Part shown: positions 22,314-44,787 of the stretch, in pieces | Layout: each line of letters begins with the position of its first letter | How positions within the stretch are numbered: the first letter of the stretch is position 1 | Made by a program: the position numbers and the translations under genes | The notes under the pieces: generated by a model | What the model was told of the DNA's origin: nothing | Databases searched by the model: none | What the model saw: the letters and a program-made list of their open reading frames with translations, nothing else | Assembly: GCF_039541115.1 (NCBI RefSeq) | Contig: NZ_BAABFP010000005.1 | Span: forward strand, 62,001 to 126,000 | Reading direction: 5' to 3' | Source of the DNA: Angustibacter luteus | GTDB taxonomy: Bacteria > Actinomycetota > Actinomycetes > Actinomycetales > Angustibacteraceae | DNA: 64,000 nt

Positions 22314-22392
22314 GCATCACTGCCAGGGGACGATCTCATCGAGTTCGGCCGTCTCCCAGGCGCCGCCCAGGTTCGTCGTCCAGCATGGGGTG

Positions 22393-27684: not shown

Positions 27685-28149
27685 ATGCGAGTTACAGGAA
27701 AGCGCCGGGTCGCCCTCGTGGCGGCCGCGACCGCCATCGTGCTGGTCGGCGCCGGCACCGCCTACGCGTACTGGACGACGACGGGCAGCGGGAGTGGAAG
27801 TGCCAGCACCGGCACCAGCGTTCCCGTGACGGTGGCGCAGGACAGCACCGTCGCCGGGCTCTACCCGGACGGTCCGGACGTGCCGCTCGACTTCACCATC
27901 ACCAACCCGAACCCCGGCTCGCAGTTCATCTCGTCCGTGACGATCGCCGTCACGGGGACGAGCTCCGCGAGCTGCACGGCTGCCAACTTCGCCGTGTCCC
28001 AGCCGACGATCACCGCGGGCAACATCGCGGCCGGCGCCACCTCCTACGCCAGCGCGACCACCGGCGCGGCGATCCACATGATCGACACCGGCGCCAACCA
28101 GGACGCCTGCAAGTCCGTCACGGTCAACCTGTCGTACTCGGTCAGCTGA
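27685..28149 (+). CDS. Small secreted beta-sandwich protein with W-x-x-T-G-S-G export motif
   Basis: This 154-residue protein starts with GAGGAG eight bases upstream. Basic MRVTGKRR is followed by a hydrophobic signal ending GTAYAYWTTTGSGSGSA, reminiscent of SipW-type signal peptides of surface or fibre proteins. The mature part has VPLDFTITNPNPGSQFISSV, a Cys pair (SCTAANF and NQDACKSV) and ends in VNLSYSVS. The NPN-Cys-NQDxCK pattern recurs in the next gene product, so the two share a domain. Function is unknown. I see no signal peptidase gene nearby. Confidence 0.75.
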   Translation: MRVTGKRRVALVAAATAIVLVGAGTAYAYWTTTGSGSGSASTGTSVPVTVAQDSTVAGLYPDGPDVPLDFTITNPNPGSQFISSVTIAVTGTSSASCTAANFAVSQPTITAGNIAAGATSYASATTGAAIHMIDTGANQDACKSVTVNLSYSVS

Positions 28150-28186
28150 CCCAGGTCCTGGCGGTTGACGAGCAGCGTGACGCGCG

Positions 28187-29002
28187 ATGACTGAGGGCGC
28201 TCAGCCGACCCCCACCCCGGAGCAGCCGGTGGCACCCCGCCGCCGAGCCGCTCTCGGGTGGTGGGTGCTGGGCGCCTTCGGCCTGCTCGCCGGCCTCGCG
28301 CTGGTCCTGGGCCAGCTGTTCCACGGGCCGGCGGCGGGCCAGGCGTCCGCCGGGTCACCGACGACGCCACCCACCACCTCGCACGCGGGCGGGCAGACTC
28401 CGTCGTTCAGCGGCACTGCCACCCCGACCGGTACCCCCACCGGTACCCCCACCGCATCCCCGACCACCACCGGCGCGGGCTCGAGCACGCGCTCGGCCGG
28501 GACGGGTCCGGTCGGATCAGGCTCCAGCGGGACCGGACCCCGCGCCACCGCGTCGGGCAGCACGACGTCCCGCCCGAGTGCCCCCTCGACCACGAGGACG
28601 TCGACCCCGCCCCCCGGTGGCGGCCCGACCATCACCCCGAGCGGCCCGGCGACGGGCTCACCGTTCACCATCACCGTGTCGGGAGTCGACGGTCCGCTGG
28701 TCCCGGGTGCGCCACGGACCTTGACCGTTCAGGTGCACAACCCGAACAGCTCCACGATCCGCCTGCTGTCCCTCACGGCGTCGGTCGGCGACCCCCAGCA
28801 CGCGGGCTGCTCCGCGGCCTGGGTGTCGGTCGGCAGCTACGCCGCCGCGCACGCCCCGTTGCTGCTCGTCGGGGCCGGCCAGTCGAGGCCGCTCTCGCTG
28901 CCGATCGTGCTCACCAACCTCGCGACGGTGAACCAGGACGGTTGCAAGGGCGTCAGCTTTCCCCTGACCTTCAACGGATCTGCCACGCAGGTGACCCCGT
29001 GA
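28187..29002 (+). CDS. Membrane-anchored protein with Pro/Thr/Ser stalk and paralogous C-terminal domain
   Basis: This 271-residue protein has a short cytoplasmic N-terminus, one TM helix (residues 25-45, WWVLGAFGLLAGLALVLGQL), a stalk of about 110 residues very rich in Thr/Ser/Pro/Gly with 12-bp DNA repeats (28428-28460, GTPT units), and a C-terminal domain (about 160-271). That domain shares HNPN, two cysteines and VNQDGCKGVSFPL with the previous protein. It is probably type II, displayed outside the membrane. The stop overlaps the next GTG, so it is translationally coupled to the large repeat protein. Confidence 0.75.
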   Translation: MTEGAQPTPTPEQPVAPRRRAALGWWVLGAFGLLAGLALVLGQLFHGPAAGQASAGSPTTPPTTSHAGGQTPSFSGTATPTGTPTGTPTASPTTTGAGSSTRSAGTGPVGSGSSGTGPRATASGSTTSRPSAPSTTRTSTPPPGGGPTITPSGPATGSPFTITVSGVDGPLVPGAPRTLTVQVHNPNSSTIRLLSLTASVGDPQHAGCSAAWVSVGSYAAAHAPLLLVGAGQSRPLSLPIVLTNLATVNQDGCKGVSFPLTFNGSATQVTP

Positions 29003-31650
29003 GCGCCCGCGGCCAGCACCGCCGTCGGGACGGCCGCCCGGTGGTCCGGCTGCTCGTCGGGTCCGTGATCGGCGTGGCCGCGCTGGTCGGGATCGGCTCG
29101 GGGTCGACCGCGATCGCCAGCTGGTCCGCGACCGGTAGCGGTGCCGGCGCCGCCGCCACGGCGACCCTGGCCCCCGCCAGCGCGCTGACCGCCGCGCAGG
29201 TCGGCAACGACGTCAAGCTCACCTGGTCTCCCGCGGTGCCGCCGAGCGGAGCGACCCTGACCGGCTACTACGTGACCCGGTACGCCGGGGCCACACCGTC
29301 CAAGGCCTGTGGCACCAACCCCGCGGCCCCCGGCACGCTCCTGCCCGCCTCCGCGCTCACCTGCACGGACACCTCCCTGGTGAACGGCACCTACTCCTAC
29401 ACCGTCACCGCGGTGCTGCGGACCTGGACGGCACCGAGCGCCGCCAGCAACGCGCTGGTCGTGATCGTCGACGGATCGGCGCCCGGACTCGCCCTGGGGA
29501 TGGCCTCCGGCGCCACCGGTGCCTCACTCTCCGGGAGCACGCTCTGGTACCGCAGCGGCGGCGCGGGCAGCGTCAGCCTGACGGCGGCCGTGACCGACGG
29601 GCAGTCGGGTCCGGCGTCCGCGTCGTTCCCGCTGGTCGCGGCCAGCGGCTGGACGCACGCCGCCGAGACCGTCACCACCGGCACCGGCTCGCCGCCCACG
29701 GTCACGTACCAGTCCAGCCCGTTCGCCTGGACGGCGTCACCGGGCACCCCTGCCTCGATGGCCGTCGTCGGCCGCGACGCCGTCGGCAACGCCTCCTCGA
29801 TCTCGGTCGCGTTCGCGGCCGACGCGAGCGCCCCGACAGGCGGCTCGCTCAGCGTGAACGGCGTGGCGGCCACGGCTGCTGGGAGCCAGAGCGTCAACAA
29901 GACCGGTGCGTTCACCCTCGGCCCGCGCATCGACTACACCGCGGACGTCGGGTCCGGGCTGGCGAGCAGCCTGCTGACGCTGCAGTCCGCGTCACTGGTC
30001 AACGGCGCCTGCGGGGCCTTCGGGGCCGCCACCACGGTGACCGGCGCGCCGGCACAGAGCGGCCTGGCCACGGGGTGCTACCGCTACAGCCTGACCGGCA
30101 CCGACCGGGTGGGCAACGCGTCGGCGCTCGTGTCGACGGTGAAGGTCGACGTCACGGCGCCCACCCAGAACCTGTCGCTGGTCTCCGGCACCGGCGCGTT
30201 CCTGACCCCGGGCCGCCTGTACTTCCGTGGCACCGCGGCGGGTTCCTTCCAGCTCGCCACCACCGTCACCGACGCCGCCACCGGCCCCGCGCAGACCGTC
30301 TTCCCGGCCATCGCGACGACGGGCTGGACCCACAACGCAGAGACCGTGACCACCGGGTCCGGCACTCCGCCCAGTACGACGTACTCCTCGACGAGCTACT
30401 CCTGGACTGCCGCACCCTCGGTCCCCGGCTCCAAGAACATCATCAGCGGCGACGGCGCGGGCAACACCGTGACCACCGCGCTGGCGTTCACCCGGGACAA
30501 CGCGGCGCCCACCGGCGCAGTGCTCAAGGTGAACGGCGGGACCGCCAGCGCGGCAGGCACGTTCACCAACAGCGCCAGCGGTACCTTCGCGATCGGGACC
30601 CGCACCGACTACGTCGAGACGACCTCCACCACCGCAGCGGGTCTGGCGTCCAGCGTGCTGACCCGCGAGGCAGGAACCCTCACGGGCACGTCCTGCAGCG
30701 CCTTCGGTGCGGCGACCACGGTGACCGGCGCGCCGGCCGAGACCGGTCTGACCACCGGTTGCTACCGCTACACCCTGACCGGCACCGACAACGTGGGGAA
30801 CGTCGTCGCGATCAGCACGACCGTGCGGGTGGACCAGTCGGCTCCGACCGGCGCCGCCCTGACCGTCAACGGCCAGGTCGCCTCGGCGGCCGGCACCACG
30901 ACGACCAACGGCACCGGCAGCTGGCCGATCGACGTCCGCACCGACTGGACCGACCCGCAGTGGGCCACCACCACCAGCACCCTGACCCGGCAGACCGCCC
31001 CGATGGCCAACGGGGTCTGCGGGACCTACGGGGGATCGTCGACGATCGCTGGGACGACGGCGCAGACCGGGACGGCACGCAACTGCTACCGGTACACGCT
31101 CACCGGTACGAACACTGCGGGGCTCGTCTCGACCGTCTCGGTCGTCGTCAGGGTCAACCCGTACGTGAGCGGCGTCCAGCTGGTCAACGGATCGGGCGCC
31201 GCCGGCCGGGTCAGTGCCGGCGACCGGATGGTCGTCACGTTCTCGGACACCATGGACCCCAGCACCTTCTGCACCGCCTGGGGCACCAGCGGCGACCAGT
31301 CCATCACCGGTGACAACCAGGCCAAGGTCTCGTTGAACGACGTCGCCGCCGGGGACACGGTGACCGTGACGTCCACGCTCTGCACGTTCCGGTTCGGCAC
31401 GATGGCCCTGGGCTCCACCGGCTACACGGGCGCGACCACCACGTTCGCAGGCGCCGGCGCCAACAAGTCCACGATCGTCTGGGACGCTGCCGCCCGCACG
31501 TTGACCGTGACGTTGGGAGCGGCGTCCAGCACCTCGCCGACCGTCGTGCCGTCGAGCGCCGTCACGTTCACCCCCAGCACGGTGATCCGCAACAGCGGAG
31601 GCCTGGCGATCGGTGGCACCTTCGTGACCGGCACGATGCAGCAGTTCTGA
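28999..31650 (+). CDS. Large secreted repeat protein (FN3/Ig-like), surface or fibre candidate
   Basis: The protein has 883 residues from GTG 28999 (GTGA overlap). The N-terminal signal ends STAIASWSATGSGAGAA, again with W-x-x-T-G-S-G. Residues 50-155 resemble a fibronectin-III domain (VKLTWSPAVPPSGATLTGYYVTR). Then come Ig-like modules; three carry near-identical Cys pairs spaced about 28 residues (around residues 336, 565 and 671), each ending in CYRYxLTGT. The first two are also similar at DNA level (near 30004-30115 and 30691-30802). The C-terminus has no LPXTG motif or membrane anchor, so attachment, if any, is by another route. Confidence 0.78.
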   Translation: MSARGQHRRRDGRPVVRLLVGSVIGVAALVGIGSGSTAIASWSATGSGAGAAATATLAPASALTAAQVGNDVKLTWSPAVPPSGATLTGYYVTRYAGATPSKACGTNPAAPGTLLPASALTCTDTSLVNGTYSYTVTAVLRTWTAPSAASNALVVIVDGSAPGLALGMASGATGASLSGSTLWYRSGGAGSVSLTAAVTDGQSGPASASFPLVAASGWTHAAETVTTGTGSPPTVTYQSSPFAWTASPGTPASMAVVGRDAVGNASSISVAFAADASAPTGGSLSVNGVAATAAGSQSVNKTGAFTLGPRIDYTADVGSGLASSLLTLQSASLVNGACGAFGAATTVTGAPAQSGLATGCYRYSLTGTDRVGNASALVSTVKVDVTAPTQNLSLVSGTGAFLTPGRLYFRGTAAGSFQLATTVTDAATGPAQTVFPAIATTGWTHNAETVTTGSGTPPSTTYSSTSYSWTAAPSVPGSKNIISGDGAGNTVTTALAFTRDNAAPTGAVLKVNGGTASAAGTFTNSASGTFAIGTRTDYVETTSTTAAGLASSVLTREAGTLTGTSCSAFGAATTVTGAPAETGLTTGCYRYTLTGTDNVGNVVAISTTVRVDQSAPTGAALTVNGQVASAAGTTTTNGTGSWPIDVRTDWTDPQWATTTSTLTRQTAPMANGVCGTYGGSSTIAGTTAQTGTARNCYRYTLTGTNTAGLVSTVSVVVRVNPYVSGVQLVNGSGAAGRVSAGDRMVVTFSDTMDPSTFCTAWGTSGDQSITGDNQAKVSLNDVAAGDTVTVTSTLCTFRFGTMALGSTGYTGATTTFAGAGANKSTIVWDAAARTLTVTLGAASSTSPTVVPSSAVTFTPSTVIRNSGGLAIGGTFVTGTMQQF

Positions 31651-31928: not shown

Positions 31929-32456
31929 CTAGCGGACGGTTGCCGCGAACGCGGCGAGCGACTCCGACGACTGCCCGGACCGCACCCTGTCGGCGACGGC
32001 GTCCCTCGTCCGCAGCGCGCGTCGCCATCCCACGACGGGCAGGCCGACGACGTCCGCGTCGACGTCTTCGTCGACGTCCGCTGGGGTGCGGCGACGAACC
32101 TCAACGGTCCACGGACGCCGTAGCGCGACGCGGGTGAGCGCCCCGAGCACCACCAGCAGCAGCACGACGAGCCCGTCGAGGAGGAGCAGGACGAGGGGCA
32201 GCAGCAGCCACCAGAAGACCAGCCCGAAGATGATCAGGCCCACCACCACGGCGATCCCGACGAGCAGGTCGTCGATGCTGTCGACCCAGGGGACGTCCAG
32301 GGTGTCCAGCCACGACCCGCGGTCCTTGCTGCGCCTGCGGTTCTCGCGCCTGCGCCAGCCACCAAGACGCCGTGCCAGCGGTCGCCACCTCGGCACCGCC
32401 CGCACGGTCACCGCGAACGTGTCGCCCGCGGGCGTGCGAGCAGTCGTGGTCAGCAT
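31929..32456 (-). CDS. Two-TM membrane protein, last gene of a six-gene unknown operon
   Basis: This 175-residue protein has an N-terminal strand-like region (TPAGDTFAVTVRAVPRWRPL), a very basic stretch (WRRRENRRRSKDRG), then a long hydrophobic stretch of about 45 residues (residues 68-110) that can form a tight two-helix hairpin. It closes with a charged cytoplasmic tail. It lies 24 bp after the preceding gene. It is the only membrane protein of the operon and could anchor the soluble products. No family is recognised. Confidence 0.7.
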   Translation of the reverse strand: MLTTTARTPAGDTFAVTVRAVPRWRPLARRLGGWRRRENRRRSKDRGSWLDTLDVPWVDSIDDLLVGIAVVVGLIIFGLVFWWLLLPLVLLLLDGLVVLLLVVLGALTRVALRRPWTVEVRRRTPADVDEDVDADVVGLPVVGWRRALRTRDAVADRVRSGQSSESLAAFAATVR

Positions 32457-32480
32457 CGACTGGATTCTGCCGCAACGGGT

Positions 32481-33164
32481 TCAGTCGACGGCCACGACAC
32501 ACACGACAGTGGCCTCCTCACCGCCGCTGACGGTGATCGTCGAACGGTAGGTCCGGCCCGCGGTGACGGTGCCGGGAGTGAGGTCGCAGGAGATCGAGAC
32601 GACCTCCTCCTTGCCGGCCGGCACGGTGGTCCTCGTCGGGTCGAGGGTGAGGGTCGCCGCCACGACGACTCCGAGCTCGTCGACGAGCGGCGAGGCCGCC
32701 AGCTCGATGCGTCGTGCTCGCGGGTGCCGGTTCGCGACGGTCAGCGAGCCGACCGCACGGTCCCCGACCACGCCGTGCAGGGTCAGCCCGGCCAGGCCCG
32801 CCGGTGCGGGCGGGGGCGGTGCCGCATGGTGCGCCGCGGGTTCGGCCGACGGGGCGTGCGCAGAGCGGCCGGTTCGCGTCCGGGCCACGTCGTCCACGAC
32901 GTTCGTGGCGACCTGGCTGCCGAGCTGGGCGACGTCGCGCGCGTACTCCGCGCCGAGCCGGCTCGCGCTGCGCCAGTAGCGCGTCCCCTCCCGCCGCGCG
33001 GCCTCGGCGTAGGCCCGGCTCGCGCTGGCCGTGTCCAGCTCGCCGCCGATCGCCGAGCGCAGCAGGTCCACGGATGCCCTGGCCCACGCCGCCTGCGCCT
33101 GCCACGCCTCGCGGGTCACGTCGAGCCATCGAGTCAGCTCCGGATCGCGTTCGTTGTCGGGCAT
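32481..33164 (-). CDS. Soluble protein: phasin-like helical N-terminus and Ig-like C-terminus
   Basis: The protein has 227 residues. Residues 1-95 are amphipathic helices rich in Trp and Ala (RWLDVTREAWQAQAAWARASV, then YWRSASRLGAEYARDVAQLG), similar in style to granule-coating phasins. A Pro/Ala/His linker (residues 100-120) leads to a beta-sandwich (LTLHGVVGDRAVGSLTVANRHPRARRIEL to STITVSGGEEATVVCVVAVD) resembling cytoplasmic MSP/NEW3-type domains. There is no signal peptide. It is 10 bp from the Cys-rich gene. Function is unknown; the phasin comparison is by eye. Confidence 0.65.
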   Translation of the reverse strand: MPDNERDPELTRWLDVTREAWQAQAAWARASVDLLRSAIGGELDTASASRAYAEAARREGTRYWRSASRLGAEYARDVAQLGSQVATNVVDDVARTRTGRSAHAPSAEPAAHHAAPPPPAPAGLAGLTLHGVVGDRAVGSLTVANRHPRARRIELAASPLVDELGVVVAATLTLDPTRTTVPAGKEEVVSISCDLTPGTVTAGRTYRSTITVSGGEEATVVCVVAVD

Positions 33165-33174
33165 CGCGCCTCCC

Positions 33175-33777
33175 TCAGCAGCAACCGCAGTCGCACGTCA
33201 CGTCCACCGCGTCGCACGAGGCCGGGTGGACGACGACCGCCACACGTTGCGGGCGTGCGCACCCCTCGAACCTGATGTCAGCGTAGGCGCTCGCGCAGCT
33301 CTGCACATCGCCCAGCGGTTCACGCTGCTCGCCGTCCTTGCCTGCGCTCACAGCGACCAGGAGCCGCACGACCTTGCGCTCGCAGCCCTGCAACGTCAGT
33401 GGCGAGTCGACGTCGAACCGGGCCTGCACCTGCACGGGCTCGTCGCTGCACAGGTGCCACGGGCCCACCTCGAGGCTGACCTCGCGCTCGCGGTGCCGGG
33501 GGTTGCGCAGCGAGAAGGCCAGCACCCGGCGTTCACCGGCGCGTGCGTGCAGCACGATGTCCGCCTGCGGGATGCAGCACGAGCACGGGTCGCCGCAGCC
33601 GCAGTCGTCGTGCGACTCCGTGCAGCCGCAGTCCTTCTGGCGGCCCTGCGGCTCGACCGTCCAGCTGCGCTGCAGCGAGCGCACGGCGCTGGAGGAGTCG
33701 TCCCACCAGCGCTGCATCGCATCGGCCCAGCCGGTGGCGAGGTCGGACAGGACGTCGGTCGGTGCGCTGCTGCTCAT
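33175..33777 (-). CDS. Cys-rich soluble protein with amphipathic N-terminus
   Basis: The protein has 200 residues from ATG 33777, overlapping the previous stop by four bases. The N-terminal 40 residues form an amphipathic helix (ATGWADAMQRWWDDSSSAVR). Seven cysteines cluster at residues 50-68 (CGC, CGCGDPCSCC) and the C-terminus ends CDCGCC; additional single Cys lie between. The middle is a beta-rich domain (ADIVLHARAGERRVLAFSLRN, DSPLTLQGCERKVVRLLV). It has no export signal, so the cysteines are probably metal ligands or modification sites. An E1-like protein is encoded divergently. Function is unknown. Confidence 0.7.
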   Translation of the reverse strand: MSSSAPTDVLSDLATGWADAMQRWWDDSSSAVRSLQRSWTVEPQGRQKDCGCTESHDDCGCGDPCSCCIPQADIVLHARAGERRVLAFSLRNPRHREREVSLEVGPWHLCSDEPVQVQARFDVDSPLTLQGCERKVVRLLVAVSAGKDGEQREPLGDVQSCASAYADIRFEGCARPQRVAVVVHPASCDAVDVTCDCGCC

Positions 33778-34439
33778 CGGCTCTTCCTTGCTGTGGTGGG
33801 CTTCTCGTCGGACGGCAGCACCACGACGACCAGCGTCGCGGTGCCGACCGGGATGCGGGCCTGGTGACGTCGGGTCGGGTCGAGGTCGTCGGGGACGCTC
33901 ACGTGCCCGGTGGCGTCGACCGTGACCCCCGGCTCGACGGTGACGGGGGAGTCCAGGCCGACCTCGACGTCGAGGTCGCCCACCACGCCGTTCGTCCAGA
34001 GCCGGGCCCGCAGCACCGACGCGATGGGCACGGACACGTTGCCCGCGTTGGTGATCCGCACGCTCAGCGGTTGCTGGCCGCGCTGCGCGAGCAGGCGGGA
34101 CGGGCTGATCCGCAGGTCGAGATCGGCCTCGACCTGCAGCACGGCGTCGCGCGCGACACCGGCCACCTCGAGCTCGACCGGGTAGCTGCCCGGCGCAGTC
34201 GATGCCGGCAGGCTCACGCTGACCGGCACGGTGCCCGTGGACCCAGCGGCCAGACGGGCACCGACCCGCGCGGTCGTCGTCCGGACGTCGGGCCCGCGGA
34301 CGGTCGCCGACCTGACCGTCACTGCGCGGTCGCCCTCGTTCGTCACGCTCACGGTGGCGTCGAGGTGGCGCGGCGTCCCGCGCAGCAGGATGGGCGGCGG
34401 GGCGTCCGCGGCCTTGGTCGTGCGACGTTTCGTTGCCAC
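33774..34439 (-). CDS. Soluble protein with two tandem Ig/NEW3-like domains
   Basis: This 221-residue protein has a basic start (MATKRRTTKAADAPPP) and two beta-sandwich units: about residues 24-105 (ATVSVTNEGDRAVTVRSATV to GSYPVELEVAGVARDAVLQV) and 106-205 (LRISPSRLLAQRGQQPLSVRIT to RIPVGTATLVVVVLP). The NEGDRAV and NAGNVSV turns are typical of NEW3/CARDB-type folds, usually extracellular, yet there is no signal peptide. It overlaps the Cys-rich gene by four bases. I infer a scaffold role; function is unknown. Confidence 0.68.
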   Translation of the reverse strand: MATKRRTTKAADAPPPILLRGTPRHLDATVSVTNEGDRAVTVRSATVRGPDVRTTTARVGARLAAGSTGTVPVSVSLPASTAPGSYPVELEVAGVARDAVLQVEADLDLRISPSRLLAQRGQQPLSVRITNAGNVSVPIASVLRARLWTNGVVGDLDVEVGLDSPVTVEPGVTVDATGHVSVPDDLDPTRRHQARIPVGTATLVVVVLPSDEKPTTARKSR

Positions 34440-34448
34440 GTCGCCCGC

Positions 34449-34877
34449 CTACCGGTCCACGACGATCGGCCGCGCCCGGTCGGGTCGCACGTGGGTGGAC
34501 GTCTGGCCGCAGACACTGAGCGAGAACAGCTCCAGCCCGAGCACCGACCACCCCCAGCGCTGTTCGTAGGGCGTGCACACCTCCGTCGGTGGCGGTGGGG
34601 CGAGCTCCAGCCGGACGCACGAGTCGACGGCCACCGGCTTCAGGTCGATGCTGGACGTCGTCTCCAGTGGCGCGAGAGTGATCCGTGCGTCGGAGCTGAC
34701 CGTGCTGTCCGTGTGCACCTTCGAGTCCGACGTCACCGCGGACGTGGTGTTCAGGCTCGTCCCGCCAGCCAGCGTGGTCGTCGTCCCGCCGTCCACCGTG
34801 AGGTTCATGTCCTCCAACCCGGCCAGGTCGGTGGTCAGGCCACCAGAGACGTTGGTGTCGATCGAGTAGTCCGCCAT
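34449..34877 (-). CDS. D/S/T-rich protein with conserved-looking Cys C-terminus, unknown
   Basis: The protein has 142 residues from ATG 34877. Residues 1-95 are low-complexity alternating polar/hydrophobic (SIDTNVSGGLTTDLAGLEDM, then Thr/Ser/Asp runs), which could form a beta-solenoid or stay flexible. The last 45 residues are ordered: SCVRLEL, EVCTPYEQRWGWSVLGLELF, SLSVCGQTS, HVRPDRARPIVV. From memory, uncharacterised proteins with a similar LGxExxxLxxCG ending exist; I cannot confirm this. The start overlaps the beta-propeller stop (TGATG) and the next gene is 9 bp away. Confidence 0.65.
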   Translation of the reverse strand: MADYSIDTNVSGGLTTDLAGLEDMNLTVDGGTTTTLAGGTSLNTTSAVTSDSKVHTDSTVSSDARITLAPLETTSSIDLKPVAVDSCVRLELAPPPPTEVCTPYEQRWGWSVLGLELFSLSVCGQTSTHVRPDRARPIVVDR

Positions 34878-36151
34878 CAGGGCGTCCCTTCCGTTGGGCT
34901 GACTGGGCTGACTGGGCTGACTGGGTTCACCAGGTAGGAGTGGTGGAAGCCGAGCCGGGGGTCGCCCCAGCTCGGTACCCGGGGGTCGAACTCCTGCAGC
35001 TCGGGCATGGGTATCCGCGTGCGCAGCTCCAGCGACGGGTAGTCGTACACGGTGATGTGGTTCTGGCCGCGGTTCGCCGTGAACAACAGGGTCTGGTCGG
35101 CGGACAGCTGGCACGCGTAGATGCCGTCCAGCAGGGCACCCCGGCTCACCTTCATCGCGCCGACGTACAGGTGCGCGTTGGCGAACACACTGCCGCGGGA
35201 CAGCGCCTCGGTGACGGTGGACGCCGCCTGGCGGGCGTGCGTCCACTGGTCCAGCGCGCCGGGGTGCTCGTCGATGATCCGGTGCTGGGACAACGTCGCC
35301 AGGTCGACCAGCACGACCGTGTGGCTGCCACCGGTGCAGAAGATGAGCTCGCGGTCGGAGATGGTCACGTCCGAGTTGATGTGCGCCGGCAGGTCCCGGT
35401 CGGCTGACCAGTGCCGCAGCACCTGCCCGGACTCCGCGTCGACCTCGTACGCGTACTCGCGAAGGTACGACATTCCCCAGTGCTGCCAGTCGGTTCCGTC
35501 GGCCGGCGCCACCCGGAACGACAGGGCGTAGAACACGTCGAGCACCGGGTGGCACACCAGGTGCCAGCACGTGGTGGGGAGCTCGACCCGTTGCACCGTG
35601 CCGGTCCGCGTGTCCAGGATGCCGACCTCACGTGCCTCGCCCCGGCTGGGGTGGTCCATTCCGCCGTACACGACGTAACGGCCGGAGGCGCTGCGCTTCA
35701 TGGCGTGCGGCACCTTCAGGCCGTGCGGGGCGATCTGCTCGGCCTTGGTCAGCCGGTTGACGTCGAAGCGCCACAGGTGCTCACCGATCGCCGTGATGAA
35801 CTCGGTCTCGTCCAGCCAGACCAGGTGCGTGCTGCCCTTGATCGTGGTGTCCGGCACCGCAAAGCGCAGGGTCGAGACGCGGTCCGCCTCGTCCAGGGTC
35901 TGCGGGTCGTAGAAGAGCAGGTGCTGGCCGGTGTTGCCGAGGAACCCCAGCCGACGCGACGGATCCACCGAGGGGGCGTGGCCGCCCGCGACCCCGCCGA
36001 AGTAGGTGATCTTGTAGGCGTGGTCGCCGGTGACGGGGTCGTACCGGAAGAGGCACACGCCGGCGCGGCCCTCAAGACCGTTGAGCCCGTTGCCGTCCAG
36101 GGCGATGTGGAAGGCGTAGGGGTACTCCCGCATCGACCCGACGCCGCTCAC
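34877..36151 (-). CDS. Cytoplasmic beta-propeller protein with blade-positioned histidines
   Basis: The protein has 424 residues from GTG 36151 (an ATG at 36133 is an alternative). Repeated strands fit a seven- or eight-bladed YVTN/WD40-like propeller (LFRYDPVTGDHAYKI, LLFYDPQTLDEADRV, LWRFDVNRLTK, VGILDTRTGTV, VVLVDLATLSQH, ITVYDYPSLEL). His recurs at similar loop positions: GGHAPS, STHLVW, VPHAMK, CWHLVCHP, PAHINSD, QWTHAR, NAHLYV, FHHSYL. That suggests a central metal site as in some propeller metalloenzymes (inference). There is no signal peptide. The C-terminus is PVS tandem repeats. It is the first gene of the operon. Confidence 0.72.
   Translation of the reverse strand: MSGVGSMREYPYAFHIALDGNGLNGLEGRAGVCLFRYDPVTGDHAYKITYFGGVAGGHAPSVDPSRRLGFLGNTGQHLLFYDPQTLDEADRVSTLRFAVPDTTIKGSTHLVWLDETEFITAIGEHLWRFDVNRLTKAEQIAPHGLKVPHAMKRSASGRYVVYGGMDHPSRGEAREVGILDTRTGTVQRVELPTTCWHLVCHPVLDVFYALSFRVAPADGTDWQHWGMSYLREYAYEVDAESGQVLRHWSADRDLPAHINSDVTISDRELIFCTGGSHTVVLVDLATLSQHRIIDEHPGALDQWTHARQAASTVTEALSRGSVFANAHLYVGAMKVSRGALLDGIYACQLSADQTLLFTANRGQNHITVYDYPSLELRTRIPMPELQEFDPRVPSWGDPRLGFHHSYLVNPVSPVSPVSPTEGTP
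34895..34930. repeat. 9-bp tandem repeat x4 at the propeller gene 3' end
   Basis: Three exact copies of TGGGCTGAC (34895-34921) and one variant (34922-34930) encode a Pro-Val-Ser tail on the minus strand. The repeat is in frame, so copy number can vary without disrupting the gene. Confidence 0.8.
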
Positions 36152-36202
36152 CAGTGATCACCACCCCGCCTGGTGCTGGTTCCGTGCGGCTCCAAGCCGC
36201 CC

Positions 36203-36339
36203 GAAATCGACCATACGCGGTGCCGTGAAAAGCGTCACGGTGACGAACCGGACAACCTGCTCGGCGGGCGCGTCGGTGAAAACGGTAGAAAACCGACGTG
36301 TCGAACTTCTTGCTATGTGATCTTGCTCGCCCCTAGCAT
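36203..36339. promoter_or_regulatory. Divergent promoters with two dyads between the unknown operon and the E1-like gene
   Basis: Minus strand: -35 TGACGC (36237-36232), 16-bp spacer, -10 TATGGT (36215-36210). Plus strand: -35 TTGCTA (36310-36315), 18-bp spacer, -10 TAGCAT (36334-36339). CGTCACGGTGACG (36233-36245) is a 13-nt palindrome over the minus -35. CGTCGGT (36271-36277) and ACCGACG (36292-36298) form a second dyad upstream of the plus promoter. The block is visibly more AT-rich than its flanks. Joint regulation of both units is likely. Confidence 0.55.
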
Positions 36340-36409
36340 TCGGCGCGGCGGGGTGGCAGCGCGCACCTCGCCTTCGACTGCGCCCCGGTGGACGACGGTG
36401 AGGTGGACC

Positions 36410-37009
36410 ATGCACGACTTCGGCAACGCGAAGGTGTCGCGTGGTCGCCGGATTCTGGTGCTGAGCAGTGACGAGTTCGGCGCGGACGTCGCCGGTCGAC
36501 TCACCGGGTTGGGGTCCGTCGTGGTGCACGACGTCAGCGCCGACACGCACCCGAGCTCGTGGCCGTCGGCCGACCTGATCGTGTTGGCCGGGCGGGACCG
36601 GCCGTGCGTGGCCGATGCGGTCGACGAGACCTCGTTCCAGCGTGGCCTTCCCTGGTTCCCGGTCAGCGTGCACGGCAGCGAGATCCAGGTGGGTCCCGTG
36701 GTCCGCCCGGGGCACAGTGCCTGCCACGGGTGCCTGACCCGTGGTCCCGAACCGCGCAGGGCGGCACTGCCGGCGGACGAGTACGCCCAGGACCACGTCG
36801 GGATCGCGGTGGGCATGGCCTACACGGCCGCCCGCGAGGCCTTCGGCGAGCTGGGTGCGACCGACGTCGGCGGCACGGTGCGAGTGTTCAGCCGGGCCGG
36901 TGGCGCGCACCGTCGGGCCGGCGCGGTCACGGCCGCGTCCGCGGACGACGACTGCCGCCGGTGTGGTGGGACGGCCGCCCCGCAGCCGGTGGGGACCGCC
37001 GTCAGCTGA
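36410..37009 (+). CDS. E1-like / TOMM cyclodehydratase-type protein with two CxxC pairs
   Basis: The protein has 199 residues from ATG 36410 with GGTGAGG upstream. Residues 14-62 are Rossmann-like (RRILVLSSDEFGADVAGRL to ADLIVLAG). FPVSVHGSEIQVGPVVRPGH is followed by Cys105/Cys108 (SACHGCLTRG), and Cys182/Cys185 (DCRRCGG) complete a probable zinc site. This pattern resembles the E1-like leader-binding proteins of thiazole/oxazole peptide clusters. No YcaO partner or obvious precursor peptide lies nearby, so it may instead present a protein such as the Cys-rich one. It overlaps the ybaK 3' end by 8 bp. Confidence 0.65.
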   Translation: MHDFGNAKVSRGRRILVLSSDEFGADVAGRLTGLGSVVVHDVSADTHPSSWPSADLIVLAGRDRPCVADAVDETSFQRGLPWFPVSVHGSEIQVGPVVRPGHSACHGCLTRGPEPRRAALPADEYAQDHVGIAVGMAYTAAREAFGELGATDVGGTVRVFSRAGGAHRRAGAVTAASADDDCRRCGGTAAPQPVGTAVS

Positions 37010-37529
37010 CCTCGATGGGCTGCCCGCCGGTGATCCGGACCAGCTCCTCGTAGGACGTCGGGAACACGGTGTGCGGGTGACCCGCGGCGGCCCACACGAC
37101 GTCGTAGCGGGACAGCGCGATGTCCACGAAGGTGCGGACCGACGTGGGGTGCCCGACGGGTGCGACGCCGCCGATGGCGAAACCCGTTGCCGCACGGACG
37201 ATCTCGGGGGTCGCCCGCTGCAGGTCCGCCAGCCCGAGCAGGTCGGCGACCTTGTGCGTGTCGACCCGGTGCGCACCCGAGGTCATGATGAGCAGCGGCT
37301 CGCCGGGGTCGCCGAGCTGGTGACGTCCCTGGTCGGGGTCGGCCACCGCGGGGACGCTCACGAAGACGAGAGAGTTCGCGATCTGCCCGACCTCGATCCC
37401 GAGCGCGTCAGCCGCGGCCTGCGCCGTGCGAGCGGCGTCGTCCAGCACCCGGATCTCGCCCTGGACGCCGAGCCCGACCAGCGTCTGCGCGACGCGTTGC
37501 ACGGCCGCGTGCTGGCTGACGTCCGTCAT
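37002..37529 (-). CDS. YbaK/EbsC-family aminoacyl-tRNA deacylase
   Basis: This 175-residue YbaK/ProX fold has LGIEVGQIANSLVFV, LLIMTSGAHRVD and ATGFAIGGVAPVGH, the conserved active-site GGVxPxGH motif, followed by VDIALSRYDVVWAAAGHPHTVF. Family members hydrolyse mischarged tRNAs such as Cys-tRNA(Pro). A TACCCT -10 (37541-37536 on the minus strand) lies exactly six bases before the ATG, so the mRNA is probably leaderless. The precise aminoacyl specificity is not predictable. Confidence 0.9.
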   Translation of the reverse strand: MTDVSQHAAVQRVAQTLVGLGVQGEIRVLDDAARTAQAAADALGIEVGQIANSLVFVSVPAVADPDQGRHQLGDPGEPLLIMTSGAHRVDTHKVADLLGLADLQRATPEIVRAATGFAIGGVAPVGHPTSVRTFVDIALSRYDVVWAAAGHPHTVFPTSYEELVRITGGQPIEVS

Positions 37530-37589
37530 GCAGGCAGGGTAGTGCTGTCGTGATCACCGGTGCCGCAGGTCGGGCTCAGGTGGCGCGTT

Positions 37590-38450
37590 TCACCAGAAGC
37601 GGGGCTGCCCGGGGATCGTCTCGAGGTCGGCCAGCACGAGCGCTCGGTCCTCGGGGTCCGTGACGTCCTCGGCGCAGGCCAGCGCCTGCTCGGTGGCCGC
37701 CCGGGCAGCCTCCTCGTCACCGCAGACGGCGTGCGCCCGGGCCAGCGCCTCGTAGGCGAAGGCCAGGTCCCAGTCGCCGATCTCGTTCTCCTGGCACAGG
37801 TCCAGGACGCGCTGGGCGTGGTGCAGGCTCGGCTCGCCACGTCGCTGCAGGGCGTAGACCCGCGAGCACAGCCACTCGCCGCGGGCCAGGTTGACCGCGT
37901 TGCCGGCGAGCTCCCAGTGGTAGCGGGAGGCGTGTGCCATGTGCAGCATGCGGTCGTCGTCCGCGCGGGTGCGGGCGTCATCCTCCATGAGCCGCCAGGT
38001 GCCGTTGAACAGGTCGACGGCGAGCCGGCGGTGCAGCTCGCCGTCCGGGGCGGGTCCGCTGGTCGGGGAGGCCGGTCCGGCCGGGACCGCGGGTGTGCTC
38101 ACGGGTGTCTCCTTCAGGTGGTGGTCGATGGTGTGCAGGTCGCCGCGCAGGCGGATCGAGCGCGCCTCGACCCGTCGGCGGTGCCGGGCCAAGGCCGTGG
38201 CCACGGCGTCGGGGTCGGTGCTCGCCAGGCACTCGCGCACCTCGCCCAGCGGGACGTCGACCGAGCGCAGCAGGTGCACCAGCTGGGCGTCGGCGAGCTG
38301 CGCCCGGGTGTAGTAGCGGTAGCCGGTCTGCGGGTCGACGAACGCCGGTGCCAGCAGGTCGACGCGGTGGTAGTGCCGCAGCGCCTTGGTGGTCAGCCCG
38401 GTCCGCCGGGCCAGCTCACCGATCGGCAGTAGGCCGTCGTGCTGGGTCAT
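37590..38450 (-). CDS. MerR-family regulator with helical (TPR-like) effector domain
   Basis: This 286-residue protein has an N-terminal winged helix (LLPIGELARRTGLTTKALRHYHRVDLLAP, then GYRYYTRAQLADAQLVHLLRSV) and a dimerisation helix (residues 75-110). A Pro/Ala linker leads to a C-terminal half of paired helices (AHASRYHWELAGNAVNLARGEW, AFAYEALARAHAVCGDEEAARA) resembling TPR repeats rather than a GyrI-like pocket. Its own promoter has a 19-bp spacer with a perfect palindrome (38468-38481), so autoregulation is expected. The inducer is unknown. Confidence 0.9.
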   Translation of the reverse strand: MTQHDGLLPIGELARRTGLTTKALRHYHRVDLLAPAFVDPQTGYRYYTRAQLADAQLVHLLRSVDVPLGEVRECLASTDPDAVATALARHRRRVEARSIRLRGDLHTIDHHLKETPVSTPAVPAGPASPTSGPAPDGELHRRLAVDLFNGTWRLMEDDARTRADDDRMLHMAHASRYHWELAGNAVNLARGEWLCSRVYALQRRGEPSLHHAQRVLDLCQENEIGDWDLAFAYEALARAHAVCGDEEAARAATEQALACAEDVTDPEDRALVLADLETIPGQPRFW

Positions 38451-38456
38451 GTCGGC

Positions 38457-38487
38457 AGGCTAGAGGTCTGCCCCGGGGCAGTCTCAA
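38457..38487 (-). promoter_or_regulatory. MerR-type operator/promoter of the regulator gene
   Basis: On the minus strand, -35 TTGAGA (38487-38482), a 19-bp spacer and -10 TAGCCT (38462-38457) enclose the perfect 14-bp palindrome CTGCCCCGGGGCAG (38468-38481). A 19-20 bp spacer carrying a dyad is the hallmark of MerR-activated promoters. The -10 is six bases before the ATG at 38450, so the message should be leaderless. Confidence 0.75.
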
Positions 38488-38567
38488 GATCGCACCTGGC
38501 AGTCCTGCGCCCGTTCGGGCGAAGGTGTTGACGGGCTGTCCGAGGCCGGGTGTAGTGTCGTTCTTGT

Positions 38568-38583
38568 TCGAACACCTGTTCGA
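38568..38583. promoter_or_regulatory. LexA (SOS) box of the translesion polymerase cassette
   Basis: TCGAACACCTGTTCGA is a full match to the actinobacterial LexA consensus, and the flanking T/A (38567, 38584) extend the dyad to 18 bases. Upstream TTGACG (38528-38533) and TAGTGT (38553-38558, 19-bp spacer) form a promoter whose start would fall inside the box. The rest of the 38585-38799 leader shows no credible gene. Confidence 0.92.
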
Positions 38584-38799
38584 ATCCTCCCCAGGGCCAG
38601 CTCCCCGTCGGCTCGGGAGGAGGGTCCGTCTTCCGGCCGCTTCGACCCCGGCCTTCCGACGGACCCGGACCTGCCTGACCCGGGTGGCGGTGGGGAAGCC
38701 GCCGCCCGGGTCCGGGCCAGTCCTGCCCTGCCCCGTCTTCCCCCTACGGCAGCGCGACCCGGATCAGGGACGTCCAGACGTGGTGTGGAGGTGGGTGCG

Positions 38800-39237
38800 G
38801 TGCGGCGGTACGACGAGCAGATCGAGGTGCGGACGGCGAGCCCGGCCGAGGGTGGGCCTGGCATCGGCCCCGGCCGGCCGGCACCGCCGGTGGCATTCGT
38901 GTGGCGGGACCGGCTGTACGTCGTGCGAGGGGTCCTCGCGCACTGGTACGAGCGTCGGGTGTGGTGGCGCGAGGCTGCGGCCTCGGCGTTGCTGGGCCTG
39001 CGCTCGGAGGCAGCCGGGGGAGCGCGAGGTGAGGGGGTCTTCGGCGGCGGCATCGCGCAGGGGGCGGTGGCGACCGTGCCCACAGACCCCGACGAGCGCC
39101 TCGAACCCACCGAGCGGCAGGTCTGGCGGGTCGAGGCGGCGGCCGGCCGGTCGAGCCCGGTCGGCGTCTACGACCTCGTGCACGACCCGTCGTCCGAGCC
39201 GAGCACCGGCTGGCGACTGGCCGGCATCGACGACTGA
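38800..39237 (+). CDS. DUF6504-like protein, first gene of the SOS cassette
   Basis: The protein has 145 residues from GTG 38800, directly behind GGAGGTGG; GTG codons at 38785 and 38791 are in frame but overlap that ribosome site. Key stretches are RRYDEQIEVRT, VAFVWRDRLYVVRGVLAHWYERRVWW, QVWRVEAAAGR and GVYDLVHDP, matching a small actinobacterial family next to dnaE2-type genes. The basic, Trp/Arg-rich core could bind nucleic acid or the polymerase. Position behind the LexA box makes it damage-inducible. Biochemical function is unknown. Confidence 0.8.
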   Translation: MRRYDEQIEVRTASPAEGGPGIGPGRPAPPVAFVWRDRLYVVRGVLAHWYERRVWWREAAASALLGLRSEAAGGARGEGVFGGGIAQGAVATVPTDPDERLEPTERQVWRVEAAAGRSSPVGVYDLVHDPSSEPSTGWRLAGIDD

Positions 39238-39240
39238 GCG

Positions 39241-39295
39241 ATCCAGCTGACCAGCCGACCATCCAGCCGACCATCCAGCCGACCATCCACCGACC
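39241..39295. repeat. 12-bp tandem repeat in the DUF6504 / HEPN gap
   Basis: Copies of ATCCAGCCGACC or close variants lie at 39241-39252, 39261-39272, 39273-39284 and 39285-39295, with a partial unit at 39253-39260. The array fills most of the intergenic spacer just upstream of the GAGGAGG ribosome site for the next gene. Confidence 0.85.
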
Positions 39296-39312
39296 CCGAC
39301 GAGGAGGTTCTC

Positions 39313-39774
39313 GTGACGACATCAGGCCCCCCACGGGTGCCAGCCAGCAGCCTCGACCTGGTCGAACGGGCCCGCGACAGCCTGGTCGCCGCGCTCACCG
39401 CGACCTCGGCCGGCGAGCGGTACGTCGCGGCGCACCTGGGTGCGCTGCGGGCGGCGGCGGCCGTGCTGTCGGTGCGGGGTCGCCCGCACCGCTACGGCCG
39501 CCCGCGCAGCGTGTGGGAGGTGCTGCCCACGGTGGCGCCCGAGCTGGGGGAGTGGGCCGCCTTCTTCGAGGCCGGGGCGACCCGCCGCGCGGCGGTCGAG
39601 GCGGGCCGCGAGGACGCCGTGAGCGGTCGGGAGGCCGACGACCTGGTGCGCGACGGTGAGGCGTTCCTTGCCGTGGTGGAGGACGCGCTCGGCCTGCCCC
39701 GGCACGCGGTCCTGCCATCCGGTGCCGTGTCGATCCGCAGCGGCTCCGCCCTGCCGCTGTCGCTGCCGGGATGA
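39313..39774 (+). CDS. SAV_6107-like HEPN-domain protein
   Basis: This 153-residue protein starts at GTG 39313 eight bases after GAGGAGG. It is mostly helical: SLDLVERARDSLVAALTATSAGERYVAAHLGALRAAAAVLSVRG, then SVWEVLPTVAPELGEWAAFFEAGATRRAAVE. It corresponds to the HEPN-like family usually found just before dnaE2-like genes in actinobacteria. The RNase motif of toxic HEPN proteins (RxxxxH) is not clearly present, so I do not predict toxin activity. The stop overlaps the polymerase ATG by four bases, suggesting strict co-production and possibly a polymerase-accessory role. Confidence 0.8.
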   Translation: MTTSGPPRVPASSLDLVERARDSLVAALTATSAGERYVAAHLGALRAAAAVLSVRGRPHRYGRPRSVWEVLPTVAPELGEWAAFFEAGATRRAAVEAGREDAVSGREADDLVRDGEAFLAVVEDALGLPRHAVLPSGAVSIRSGSALPLSLPG

Positions 39775-42700
39775 GCAGCGACTTCGTCCACCTGCACGTG
39801 GCGTCGGGGTACTCGCTGCGGCACGGGGCCTGCTCGCCGCAGGCGCTGGTGGACCATGCGGTCGAGCTGGGGATGGGTGGGCTCGCCCTGACCGACCGCG
39901 ACGGCCTGTACGGCGCGGTCAAGTTCGTCCAGGCCTGCGAGCGCGCCGGGATCGCACCCTCGCTGGGGGTGGACCTCGCGACGGCACCCACCGGCTTGGT
40001 CGACGAGCTGCCCGGGTGGGCCGACCCGTCGACGACCGTGCGGGCCGCCGGTGCCGGGCGCACCCCCGTCCGCGGCGGTGCGCTGGTGGACGTCTACCGG
40101 CCCCGGGTCACCGTCCTCGCCCTGGGCGCCGACGACCGGCAGGCCCGACCGGCCGGGCAGGGCTGGGCGGCGCTGTGCCGGCTCACGTCGTCCGCCCACC
40201 TGGCCAGCGCCTCGCTGGGCGGTGAACGCGGGACGCCGGTCAGCGACCTGGCGATGATCGCCCGGCACATCACCGGTTCCACCAGCGCCGACGACGGTCC
40301 CGCGGCGCTCGCGGTGCTGCTCGGTCCGGCCAGCGAGGTCGGCCGCGCGGTGCTGGCCCGGCGACCGGACCTGGCCCGTGCCGTCCTGTCCCGGTGGCGC
40401 GCGGCGCTGCCCGAGGGCGCGCTCGCGATCGAGGTGGTCTGCCACCACGGGCCGCCGGGTGGTCCGCTCAGCGTCCAGCACGCCGCCCGGATGCTGGCCC
40501 TGGCCCGCGAGGTCGGCCTGCCCGCCGTCCTGACCAACGCCGTGCGCTACGCCACGCCGGACGGTGCCGCCACCGCCGACGTCCTGGACGCCACCCGGCG
40601 GTTGGTCACGCTCGACGTCCGGCACCTGGACCGCGTGACGGCCCAGGGGTACCTGGCGGACGGTGCCACCATGGCGCGCACCGCCGAGCAGGTCGCCGCG
40701 GCGCTCGGCGGCGGCAGCCACCAGGCCGGTGAGCAGGCGCACCGGCTGCTGGCGGACACGGCCGCCCTGGCCCGCCGCACCCGGCTGGACCCGCGGGCCG
40801 ACCTCGGCATCGGCTCGGTGCACCTGCCCGAGCCGGCGGTGCTCGGGCTGACCGCCGACCAGCGGCCAGCGACGGTGCTGCGTGAGCGGGTGCGGGCCGC
40901 GATCGGCGGCCGGTACGCGGGGGTCTCGGGTCACCAGCTGGCGCAGGTCGAGCAGCGGCTCGACGACGAGCTCTCGGTCATCGACCAGCTCGGCTACCAG
41001 AGCTACTTCCTCACCGTGGCCGCGGTGTGCGACCTGATCCGCGACATGAACGTGCGGGTGGCCGCTCGCGGCTCGGGGGCGGGCAGCCTGGTGAACTACC
41101 TGCTCGGCATCAGCGGCGTCGACCCGATCGAGCACGGCCTGCTGATGGAGCGCTTCTGCTCGCCGCTGCGCGCCCAGCTGCCGGACATCGACATCGACGT
41201 CGAGTCGGACCGGCGCACCCAGGTGTACGAGCAGATCCTGGCGCGGTTCGGCGGTGAGCGGGTCACCTGCGTGTCGATGATGGACACCTACCGGGTGCGG
41301 CACGCCGTCCGCGACGTCGGTGCCGCGCTCGGCCTGCCGCCAGCCGAGGTCGACGCCATCGCCAAGTCCTTCCCGCACATCCGGGCGCGCAACGCCCGCA
41401 CCGCGATCGCCGAGCTGCCCGAGCTGCGGGCCAGCGGTCTGGGGCACCAGCGGCTCGACCTGCTCTTCGAGCACGTGGAGCGGCTCGACGCGCTGCCCCG
41501 GCACATCGCGCTGCACCCGTGCGGGGTCGTGCTGTCCGACGGCACCCTGCTGGACCGCACGCCGGTCGAGGCGAGCTGGCTGGGCTTCCCGATGAGCCAG
41601 TTCGACAAGGACGACGTCGAGGCGATGGGCCTGCTGAAGCTCGACGTGCTGGGCATCCGGATGCAGTCGGCGATGGCGCACGCGGTCGACGAGGTCGCCC
41701 GGGTGGACGGCGAGCAGGTCGACCTCGACGACCGTACGCACGTGCCGCTGGACGACGAGGCGACCTTCCGACTGATCCGCTCGACGCACACCCTCGGCTG
41801 CTTCCAGATCGAGTCGCCCGGCCAGCGCGAGCTCGTCGGCAAGTTCGGCCCAGAGACGTTCGGCGACCTCGTCATCGACATCTCGTTGTTCCGGCCCGGC
41901 CCGGTGAAGTCCGACATGGTGACGCCGTTCCTGCAGGCCCGGCAGGGCTGGCGGGACGCCCAGTACCTGCACCCGTCCCTGCGTCCGGCGCTGGAGGACA
42001 CCTGCGGCGTCGTCGTCTTCCACGAGCAGGTGCTGCAGATCGTGGCGGTCACCACCGGGGTCAGCCTCGCCGAGGCGGACGAGGTGCGCCGCGCGATGGG
42101 CTCCCCGGCCGGCCAGCTGGAGGTCGAGGCGTGGTGGCGTCCGGCGGCCCGTGCCCGCGGGTACGCCACTACCGACGTCGAGCGGATCTGGTTGGTGCTC
42201 AAGGCGTTCGCGTCCTTCGGCTTCTGCAAGGCGCACGCCGCCGCCTTCGCGCTGCCCACCTACCAGTCCGCCTGGCTCAAGGCGCACCACCCGGCCGCGT
42301 TCCTGGCCGGGGTGCTCACCCACGACCCCGGCATGTACCCCAAGCGGCTGATCCTGGACGACGCGCGCAGCCTCGGCATCGCCGTCCTCAGCCTGGACGT
42401 CAACGCCAGCGACGGCACCTACCGGGTGGAGCGGCTCGCGCCCTGGGACGAACCGCCGCCGGCCATCCTGGACCAGCTGGACGCCGGCCCGGACCGCCCG
42501 GACGACGGGCCGCGCCCTCGCCCGCACCCCGACCTGCCGGACGGGCGGGACTACGGCATCCGGCTCTCGTTGGCAGACGTCAAGGGGATCAACGCCGCGG
42601 AGGTCGAACGGATCGTCGCCGGGCGCCCGTACGCCTCGCTCGCCGACTTCTGGCACCGGGCCCGGGTCAGCCGTCCGGTGGTGGAGCGGCTCGTCGTCGC

Positions 42701-43808: not shown

Positions 43809-43911
43809 CCGTCGCGCCGTCAGCGGCCCTCACTAGGCTGGGCGGTGGCCGCGAGCACCGTGGCCCCCGCGAGCCCAGCGCCCGGGTACGACGACCTCGA
43901 GGAGCCCACCG

Positions 43912-44724
43912 GTGGCCGCACCGTCCGACGCGCCCCGCCGTGCCCGCCGGGGCGACGTGGCCAGCGCCCCTCGCACCGCCGCGGTCTGGGAGGTGGTGTC
44001 TCGCACCGCAGCTGCCCTGCAGCGCGCGCAGCCGGATGCCGACGCCCCGCTCACCGTGCTCGACGTCGGTGGCGGCACCGGCGGCCTCGCCGTCCCGCTC
44101 GCCTCGCTCGGCCACCACGTCACCGTCGTCGACCCGAGCCCGGACGCGCTCGCTGCGCTGGCCCGCCGCGCCGAGGAGGCCGGTGTCGTCGGCCGGATCA
44201 CCGCCGTCCAGGCGGACGCCGCGCAGCTCGCCCAGGTGGTCGGGCCAGGCAGCGTCGACCTGGTCTGCTGCCACGGCGTGCTGGAGTACGTCGACGAGCC
44301 CGCCGAGGCCGTCGGGGCCGTCGCCGACGTGCTGCGTGACGGTGGCGCAGCCAGCCTCCTGGTCGCCCAGCGCCTTGCCGTCGTCCTCGCCCGTGCCCTG
44401 GCCGGCCGGTTCGCCGAGGCCGTGCACGCGCTGGACGACCCGGCCGGGCGGTGGGGGATGGCCGACCCCTTGCCGCGTCGCTTCGACGCGACCGACGTCA
44501 TCGCCCTCGCCGAGGCGGCCGGCCTGTCCACCAGCAGCGACCTGGCGGTCGTGCACGGGGTGCGCCTGTTCAGCGACCTCGTGCCCGAGGCACTCGTCGA
44601 CAGCGAGGACGCCCGCACGGCCCTGCTCGACCTGGAGCGCCAGGCCGGCGACCACCCGGACCACCCAGAGCTCGCCTCGCTGGCTGCCCAGCTGCACGTC
44701 GTGGCGGTTCGCGAGCCACGGTGA
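43912..44724 (+). CDS. Class I SAM-dependent methyltransferase between dnaE2 and dinB
   Basis: The protein has 270 residues from GTG 43912 with GAGGAG upstream. Motif I is VLDVGGGTGGLAVPLA, the acidic motif II is TVVDPSPDAL, and motif IV is VDLVCCHGVLEYVDEP, as in Methyltransf_11/25 small-molecule or tRNA methylases. It lies between polymerase and dinB with the same direction, but a TAGGCT -10 at 43834-43839 suggests its own promoter. Substrate is unknown; a link to DNA repair is only positional. Confidence 0.82.
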   Translation: MAAPSDAPRRARRGDVASAPRTAAVWEVVSRTAAALQRAQPDADAPLTVLDVGGGTGGLAVPLASLGHHVTVVDPSPDALAALARRAEEAGVVGRITAVQADAAQLAQVVGPGSVDLVCCHGVLEYVDEPAEAVGAVADVLRDGGAASLLVAQRLAVVLARALAGRFAEAVHALDDPAGRWGMADPLPRRFDATDVIALAEAAGLSTSSDLAVVHGVRLFSDLVPEALVDSEDARTALLDLERQAGDHPDHPELASLAAQLHVVAVREPR

Positions 44725-44780: not shown

Positions 44781-44787
44781 TGACGGC

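Follow-up and report, generated by a model that had tools for sequence, protein, structure and literature searches.

What does a compact run of minus-strand genes in the actinobacterium Angustibacter luteus encode, when its products resemble so little that has been described? The locus lies within the window analysed here, a stretch of 64 kb from a genome of 4.16 Mb in 11 contigs, with a G+C content of approximately 73%. An earlier note on this window had described six closely spaced genes and a divergent gene for an E1-like protein at positions 31,929 to 37,009. Comparison with related genomes redraws these boundaries. Five of the six operon genes, for a β-propeller and the proteins C, D, E and F, form a rare seven-gene chromosomal module, as judged from sequence comparison, together with two genes at 22,731–25,753 for a short-chain dehydrogenase/reductase (SDR) and a DUF362-domain fusion. 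The two partner genes lie beyond the coordinates of the earlier note and were missed there.

The operon runs on the minus strand from 36,133 to 31,929 in the order propeller, C, D, E, F and G. The propeller gene (34,877–36,133) is placed at an ATG at 36,133 by comparison with its relatives, with a GTG at 36,151 as the alternative start. Its stop codon and the start of C (34,449–34,877) share one base, and this overlap is identical in all six relatives measured. Gene D (33,774–34,439) follows after 9 bp, E (33,175–33,777) overlaps D by 4 bp, and F (32,481–33,164) and G follow after 10 and 24 bp, respectively. The six minus-strand genes with overlaps or gaps of up to 24 bp, and the divergent gene beside them, are thus confirmed (spacing of −1 to 24 bp), with all seven reading frames open at the coordinates first listed for them. 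Promoter and terminator scans gave no finding.

The five genes recur elsewhere. Thirteen relative loci of 4.9–18 kb each were compared by tblastn with a match limit of 1e-3. The order propeller-C-D-E-F is conserved in the Dermatophilaceae/Intrasporangiaceae, while in another order and in another class of the Actinomycetota it is diverged and partly rearranged. It is kept in seven loci (L009, L012–L016 and L019) and in L029, the contigs of L011 and L018 end within the module, and in L027 and L028 the propeller lies on the strand opposite to C–F. Because this five-gene order recurs in other genomes, the grouping goes beyond chance. The expectation that the operon genes travel together therefore holds for five of the six, and fails for G and the E1-like gene. 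Certain assignments in the distant loci are less even: D of L027 was matched at 6.2e-9 in one comparison and went unreported in another tblastn run, and F of L028, without a tblastn match, is assigned by position and reading. At L017:2564-4616, in an Intrasporangium metagenome-assembled genome (MAG), the propeller gene overlaps F directly, as a real deletion or an assembly artefact.

The distribution of the module is sparse. Among the matches listed, the propeller query finds five of 396 genomes of the order. A profile of the DUF362 fusion (threshold 1e-8), the rows of which include two of those five genomes (G019 and G245) as well as L027 and L028, matches the same five and no others among the matches listed. 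As four of the five belong to one genus, the co-occurrence at the genus level amounts to two of 109. Outside the order, the lineages of L027, L028 and L029 hold both propeller and fusion, the last with the C-terminal half of the fusion only. The propeller was also found in two of 66 genomes of a further set, and a profile search across the phylum matched four of 396 genomes, two of them from another class. Nine loci came from a pattern-based scan of 84,980 species genomes, a method limited to close relatives: two from Phycicoccus, one from Pedococcus, two from Terrabacter, one from Knoellia, one from the Intrasporangium MAG and two from less-well-placed actinobacterial MAGs. With profiles of single proteins, C gave four matches and E three among 296 genomes of the class. 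One of the C matches, G803 from another order, carries the module; G791 (2.1e-4), on a contig without another module gene, was treated as a chance match and rejected as a carrier. No relatives of the propeller were found in the viral contigs or plasmids searched, and the six operon proteins have no match in PHROGs at 0.01. PADLOC gave no clear match among nine proteins, with two borderline touches (E at 0.0032 and the propeller at 0.0084).

The degree of conservation is unequal within the module. In the Dermatophilaceae-type loci, identity to the window is 77–81% for the propeller, 61–69% for the SDR, 47–54% for the DUF362 fusion and 33–52% for C, D, E and F; in the three distant lineages the propeller still shows 56–67%. 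A propeller at 77–81% against 33–52% for C–F would suit a catalytic core surrounded by a more loosely constrained scaffold. In the two Terrabacter loci (L015:5346-7878 and L016:5353-7878), genes resembling isoprenylcysteine methyltransferase and UbiA occupy the other strand upstream of the propeller gene, and in L015 a type III polyketide synthase-like gene stands between them, all by reading of the frames.

The two partner genes follow the five-gene core closely. Matches to the SDR and the DUF362 fusion occur within the module locus in all 11 loci long enough to show them. In nine of these (L009, L012–L017, L019 and L029) the pair comes directly after F on the opposite strand; in L028 it follows F on the same strand, and in L027 it lies beyond the propeller. 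In the window, the pair faces F across approximately 6 kb, where a glyoxalase-like gene and one for an APH-like kinase lie among other genes that are small or look exported. Three plus-strand genes are found at 27,685–31,650, between the two halves of the module; at least two of them have exported-looking N-termini and no Pfam match at 0.01.

The SDR (24,707–25,753, plus strand) is an NAD-dependent epimerase-type protein (PF01370, 2.7e-26). It resembles HpnA (TIGR03466) at 4.1e-61 over nearly its full length, with a score of 206.7 bits that stays below the cut-off of 367.65, and it also matches SdmB and OleD. The fusion protein (22,731–24,710, plus strand; its true start may be later) carries a DUF362 domain above the cut-off (PF04015, 5e-6). 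DUF362 shares a clan (Pfam CL0471) with DUF2088, the LarA domain, according to the excerpt consulted of PMC11770544; the module protein differs from that clan in its fusion to a possible lipid-binding domain, and it gives no sign of a nickel-pincer cofactor. The C-terminal half concerned may be SRPBCC/START-like, a weakly supported assignment. A standalone neighbour in L027 matches DUF2505 (8e-6) and Polyketide_cyc2 (1.9e-4), both below cut-off. In the PDB sequence search the fusion gave chance-level touches only.

The propeller is the best conserved product and the one for which a fold could be modelled. An AlphaFold model with five close sequences reached a pLDDT of only 41.6 and was discarded; with 14 sequences the values were 77.3 for pLDDT and 0.80 for pTM. 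The model (418 aa) is a ring of seven blades, assigned by hand from the listed strands, which is closed by a C-terminal strand (396–402) beside the N-terminal strands. The innermost strands, termed strand A, begin at residues 51, 104, 141, 189, 252, 338 and 396. The protein had been called His-studded in the earlier note, and 22 His are counted over 404 aa. Seven invariant His (52, 103, 143, 191, 251, 397 and 398) sit at the starts of innermost strands on six of the seven blades, 397 and 398 being consecutive. Of the 11 His invariant across the 14 sequences, seven fall within 28 strand-A-start positions out of 418 (hypergeometric 7.7e-7; 7.6e-5 among invariant columns only), in windows that were defined after the pattern was seen.

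This arrangement recalls the CuZ propeller of nitrous oxide (N2O) reductase. As an excerpt of PMC11573801 describes it, the ligands of CuZ are seven His on six of the seven blades, with one blade supplying two consecutive His. The two propellers are alike in having seven blades closed by a C-terminal innermost strand and seven hub His, which come from six blades and include one consecutive pair. In the VIA structure comparison, nearly the whole model can be superposed on N2O reductases (Z of about 27–28, root-mean-square deviation 3.0–3.1, 297–306 residues), at 8–10% identity. Unlike N2O reductase, which has a C-terminal cupredoxin CuA domain, the module protein ends with the propeller at 418 aa, and it has no export signal by reading. 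No selenium-binding protein or carotenoid oxygenase is among the 50 matches listed by VIA, which excludes nothing. Within the limits applied, the PDB sequence search returned no relative for the propeller or for C and D.

The other four core proteins are mostly without families. Among the seven proteins of the operon and the E1-like gene, only D passes a curated cut-off, with NEW3 in Pfam (PF10633, 2.3e-8; alignment of nine sequences), and none does so in NCBIfam. Protein C, compared over nine sequences, has a Ser/Thr/Asp-rich N-terminal part, in line with its first description (37 Ser/Thr per 142 aa), and a conserved C-terminal domain; no Pfam or NCBIfam match was found. E, aligned over seven sequences, combines an amphipathic N-terminal helix, a Cys-rich tract that in many relatives is also rich in His, an Ig-like stretch and a C-terminal CDCGCC. 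At least 12 Cys had been claimed for one Ig-like protein, and 16 are counted in E (200 aa). Across 11 reading frames E has 13–26 Cys, with conserved Cys motifs at both ends, and 2–29 His, the numbers up to 29 occurring in Dermatophilaceae-type members and few His in others; four of the 11 were read from stop to stop, and the ends of those four are uncertain. Seven E members gave no Pfam match at 0.1, and E has only chance-level touches in the PDB.

F, compared over nine sequences, has a helical N-terminal part and an Ig/fn3-like C-terminal part. The window protein meets no family at 0.1 (nearest fn3_5 at 0.12), while its relatives match fn3_5 in six of nine cases (best 1.4e-5) and FixG_C in five of nine at a limit of 0.1. 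F also touches two designed Ig proteins in the PDB at about 0.01. E and F share an Ig-like stretch (hhalign probability 67.7, E-value 4.9e-5), F and D are weakly similar (39.7, 3e-4), and profile comparison gave no shared stretch for D and E. Of the three Ig/NEW3-like proteins first proposed, D thus stands above the cut-off, and E and F are Ig-like by profile comparison, F also through its relatives. The amphipathic N-terminal helices are borne out by 18-mers at residues 61–78 of F (moment 0.74) and 20–37 of E (moment 0.65). The Ig-like proteins also look cytoplasmic, as first supposed: by reading of the N-termini, the core proteins lack an export signal. The F homologue of L027 (4995-5897) and the F-position open reading frame (ORF) of L028 (2577-3461) have a CxxC-containing zinc-ribbon-like tail, unseen in the aligned Dermatophilaceae-type F. 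In L028, the F-position ORF and the DUF362 fusion are separated by a further small ORF (3869-4216, 115 aa), helical and phasin-like, without a convincing Pfam match.

What might these products do together? The reading preferred here, tentatively and at less than an even chance, is a cytoplasmic metal-dependent assembly that acts on a hydrophobic substrate. The seven module products would work together in the cytoplasm as an enzyme assembly, in which C, D, E and F, variously Ig-like, amphipathic-helical or rich in Ser/Thr, serve as scaffold or coat. The Cys/His-rich tract of E would bind and supply a transition metal, and the propeller would be a metalloprotein with the metal on its ring of seven hub histidines. 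The substrate, hydrophobic or of a hydroxy-acyl type, would then be bound and chemically changed by the SDR and the DUF362/START-like protein. The metal theme of the earlier note is possible to the extent that the Cys/His-rich E and the hub His of the propeller suggest it. A more specific form is rather improbable: that the hub holds a seven-His metal cluster of its own, evolved separately from CuZ and fed by the Cys/His-rich Ig protein, within a protein-coated lipid-processing particle.

Several observations weigh against the metal-dependent assembly. N2O reductase is tied in VIA with lactonase, YVTN, mLST8 and cobalamin-binding propellers (Z of 26–30), and the fold therefore does not point to it in particular; the best Foldseek match is NirN, at 12% identity amid many WD40 proteins. 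The blades also differ, since the consecutive pair of the module protein sits on the C-terminal strand and its last blade is empty, whereas N2O reductase has the pair on blade II and an empty blade IV. The placement of the hub His is derived from the secondary structure of the model and the invariant columns, not from closeness in space. Propellers not known as metalloenzymes carry hub His too: E. coli Pgl, which is metal-free, has His at a comparable motif in four of its seven blades by sequence reading. As this counter-control shows hub His as well, the metal hub is put forward as a testable suggestion and not as a result. The other components add to these doubts. E of the window has just five His, and several relatives also have few. 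C, D and E are absent from the Intrasporangium MAG locus, where only the propeller and F of the five-gene core remain. The SRPBCC call for the fusion is weak, its C-terminal half touching Polyketide_cyc2 in one relative at 0.0081, below cut-off, and L029 matches this half of the fusion only.

The closest competitor, a doubtful though serious one, has the propeller as a lactonase-like or ligand-binding enzyme without metal; the module would then be a soluble metabolic pathway, to which the Ig-domain proteins are accessory. YVTN-type lactonases and 6-phosphogluconolactonases have the same fold with His at several strand-A starts, and are among the best structural matches (1ri6 with Z 28.4, 6nau 28.1 and 1jof 28.0). 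The propeller touches the Pfam Lactonase family (PF10282) at 0.2, with 11.2 bits against a cut-off of 21.7; this and the hub His of Pgl fit such a reading. Across the 14 propellers, however, Lactonase is unmatched at 0.1, and hub His on as many as six blades, two of them consecutive, go beyond what Pgl, the one example read, shows. The Cys/His-rich E would also stay unexplained. That protein is the starting point of another proposal, in which a metallothionein-like E and the proteins C, D and F make a metal-loaded particle for storage or buffering, and the propeller and enzymes help with loading. The Cys content of E, its motifs at both ends, the up to 29 His per frame and the invariant hub His agree with this, yet the five His of the window protein and their absence from the N-terminal segment of the matched L019 frame do not. 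No recurring metal transporter or regulator is seen by reading of the frames listed for the loci, with no dedicated search, and the SDR and the DUF362 fusion find no place in such a body.

A polyhydroxyalkanoate (PHA) or neutral-lipid granule, with the operon proteins as its surface coat and F as a phasin analogue, would make use of the N-terminal amphipathic helices of E and F and of the SDR matches to HpnA, SdmB and OleD, besides the weak Polyketide_cyc2 touch. The helical part of F is only nominally phasin-like, with one of nine members touching Phasin_2 (PF09361) at 0.069. PhaC_N, in a search that left aside class III PHA and triacylglycerol/wax synthases, is present in two of eight module-bearing genomes (G000 and G738), the window's own genome being one of the two, and in none of 14 others. 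Together with the single Phasin_2 touch, these counts disfavour a PHA granule. The granule coat is unlikely overall, and the metal-storage body no likelier. A modification of the TOMM type, in which the E1-like protein would modify an operon product such as C, draws on a similarity to TIGR03882 and on proximity. It is very improbable, and was set aside as largely refuted on the evidence of the E1-like gene itself.

This gene (36,410–37,009, plus strand) does encode, by reading, the two CxxC pairs first reported, CHGC and CRRC, and its product scores 26.3 of the required 36.9 bits against TIGR03882 (7.4e-6), with ThiF likewise below cut-off. The 13 relative module loci contain nothing that matches it. 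At a limit of 0.01, matches occur in 14 of 42 genomes; five of the seven other module-bearing genomes have none, and two have weak ones (about 2e-4). The best non-self match (8.7e-39, 51% identity) is in a sister species, G001, for which the order-genome searches found neither propeller nor DUF362 fusion. The sister has the same outer flanks (window 20,034–22,652 and 37,002–46,062) around a different stretch of approximately 14.5 kb. That stretch holds the E1-like relative, a YcaO protein (1e-41), a nitroreductase-family SagB-type protein (2e-7), a second weak-ThiF protein and an ABC transporter, and forms a TOMM-type locus (L054/L055, contig C18, about 73–88 kb). The YcaO and SagB-type partners, typical of TOMM (YcaO) clusters for ribosomally synthesized and post-translationally modified peptides, are seen in the sister species only; a search at 1e-3 of the 64 kb window, the part of the genome covered, matched neither. 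The window gene is most simply read as an orphan of a TOMM-type locus. Since it is absent from module loci and its nearest relative stands in the TOMM-type locus of a module-free species, it is placed outside the module, and the role of modification enzyme given to it earlier is not supported. Gene G (31,929–32,456, minus strand), 3′ of F, has two hydrophobic stretches by reading, which agrees with the two-transmembrane protein first described. None of the 13 relative loci matches it, and it likewise lies outside the conserved module.

The seven-gene set appears to be new as a gene system. No description of it was found in the open-licence papers searched, and no characterised system matched in the libraries; the earlier impression that none of the operon genes belongs to a known pathway is upheld within those libraries. 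The propeller, C and E match no family above a curated cut-off. The folds themselves (propeller, Ig, SDR and DUF362) are known, and the function is a proposal.

Should the hub histidines bind metal, the propeller would represent a second design of a poly-histidine metal site on this fold, with a bearing on the origin of CuZ-type clusters. A coat of C–F, if they form one, would make cytoplasmic Ig-like domains the building blocks of a bacterial protein assembly of a new type. Cultured soil actinobacteria, among them Phycicoccus, Terrabacter and Knoellia, would allow a direct test of both ideas. Were a separately evolved hub cluster and a coated assembly both to prove true, the module would encode a new kind of bacterial metabolic particle.

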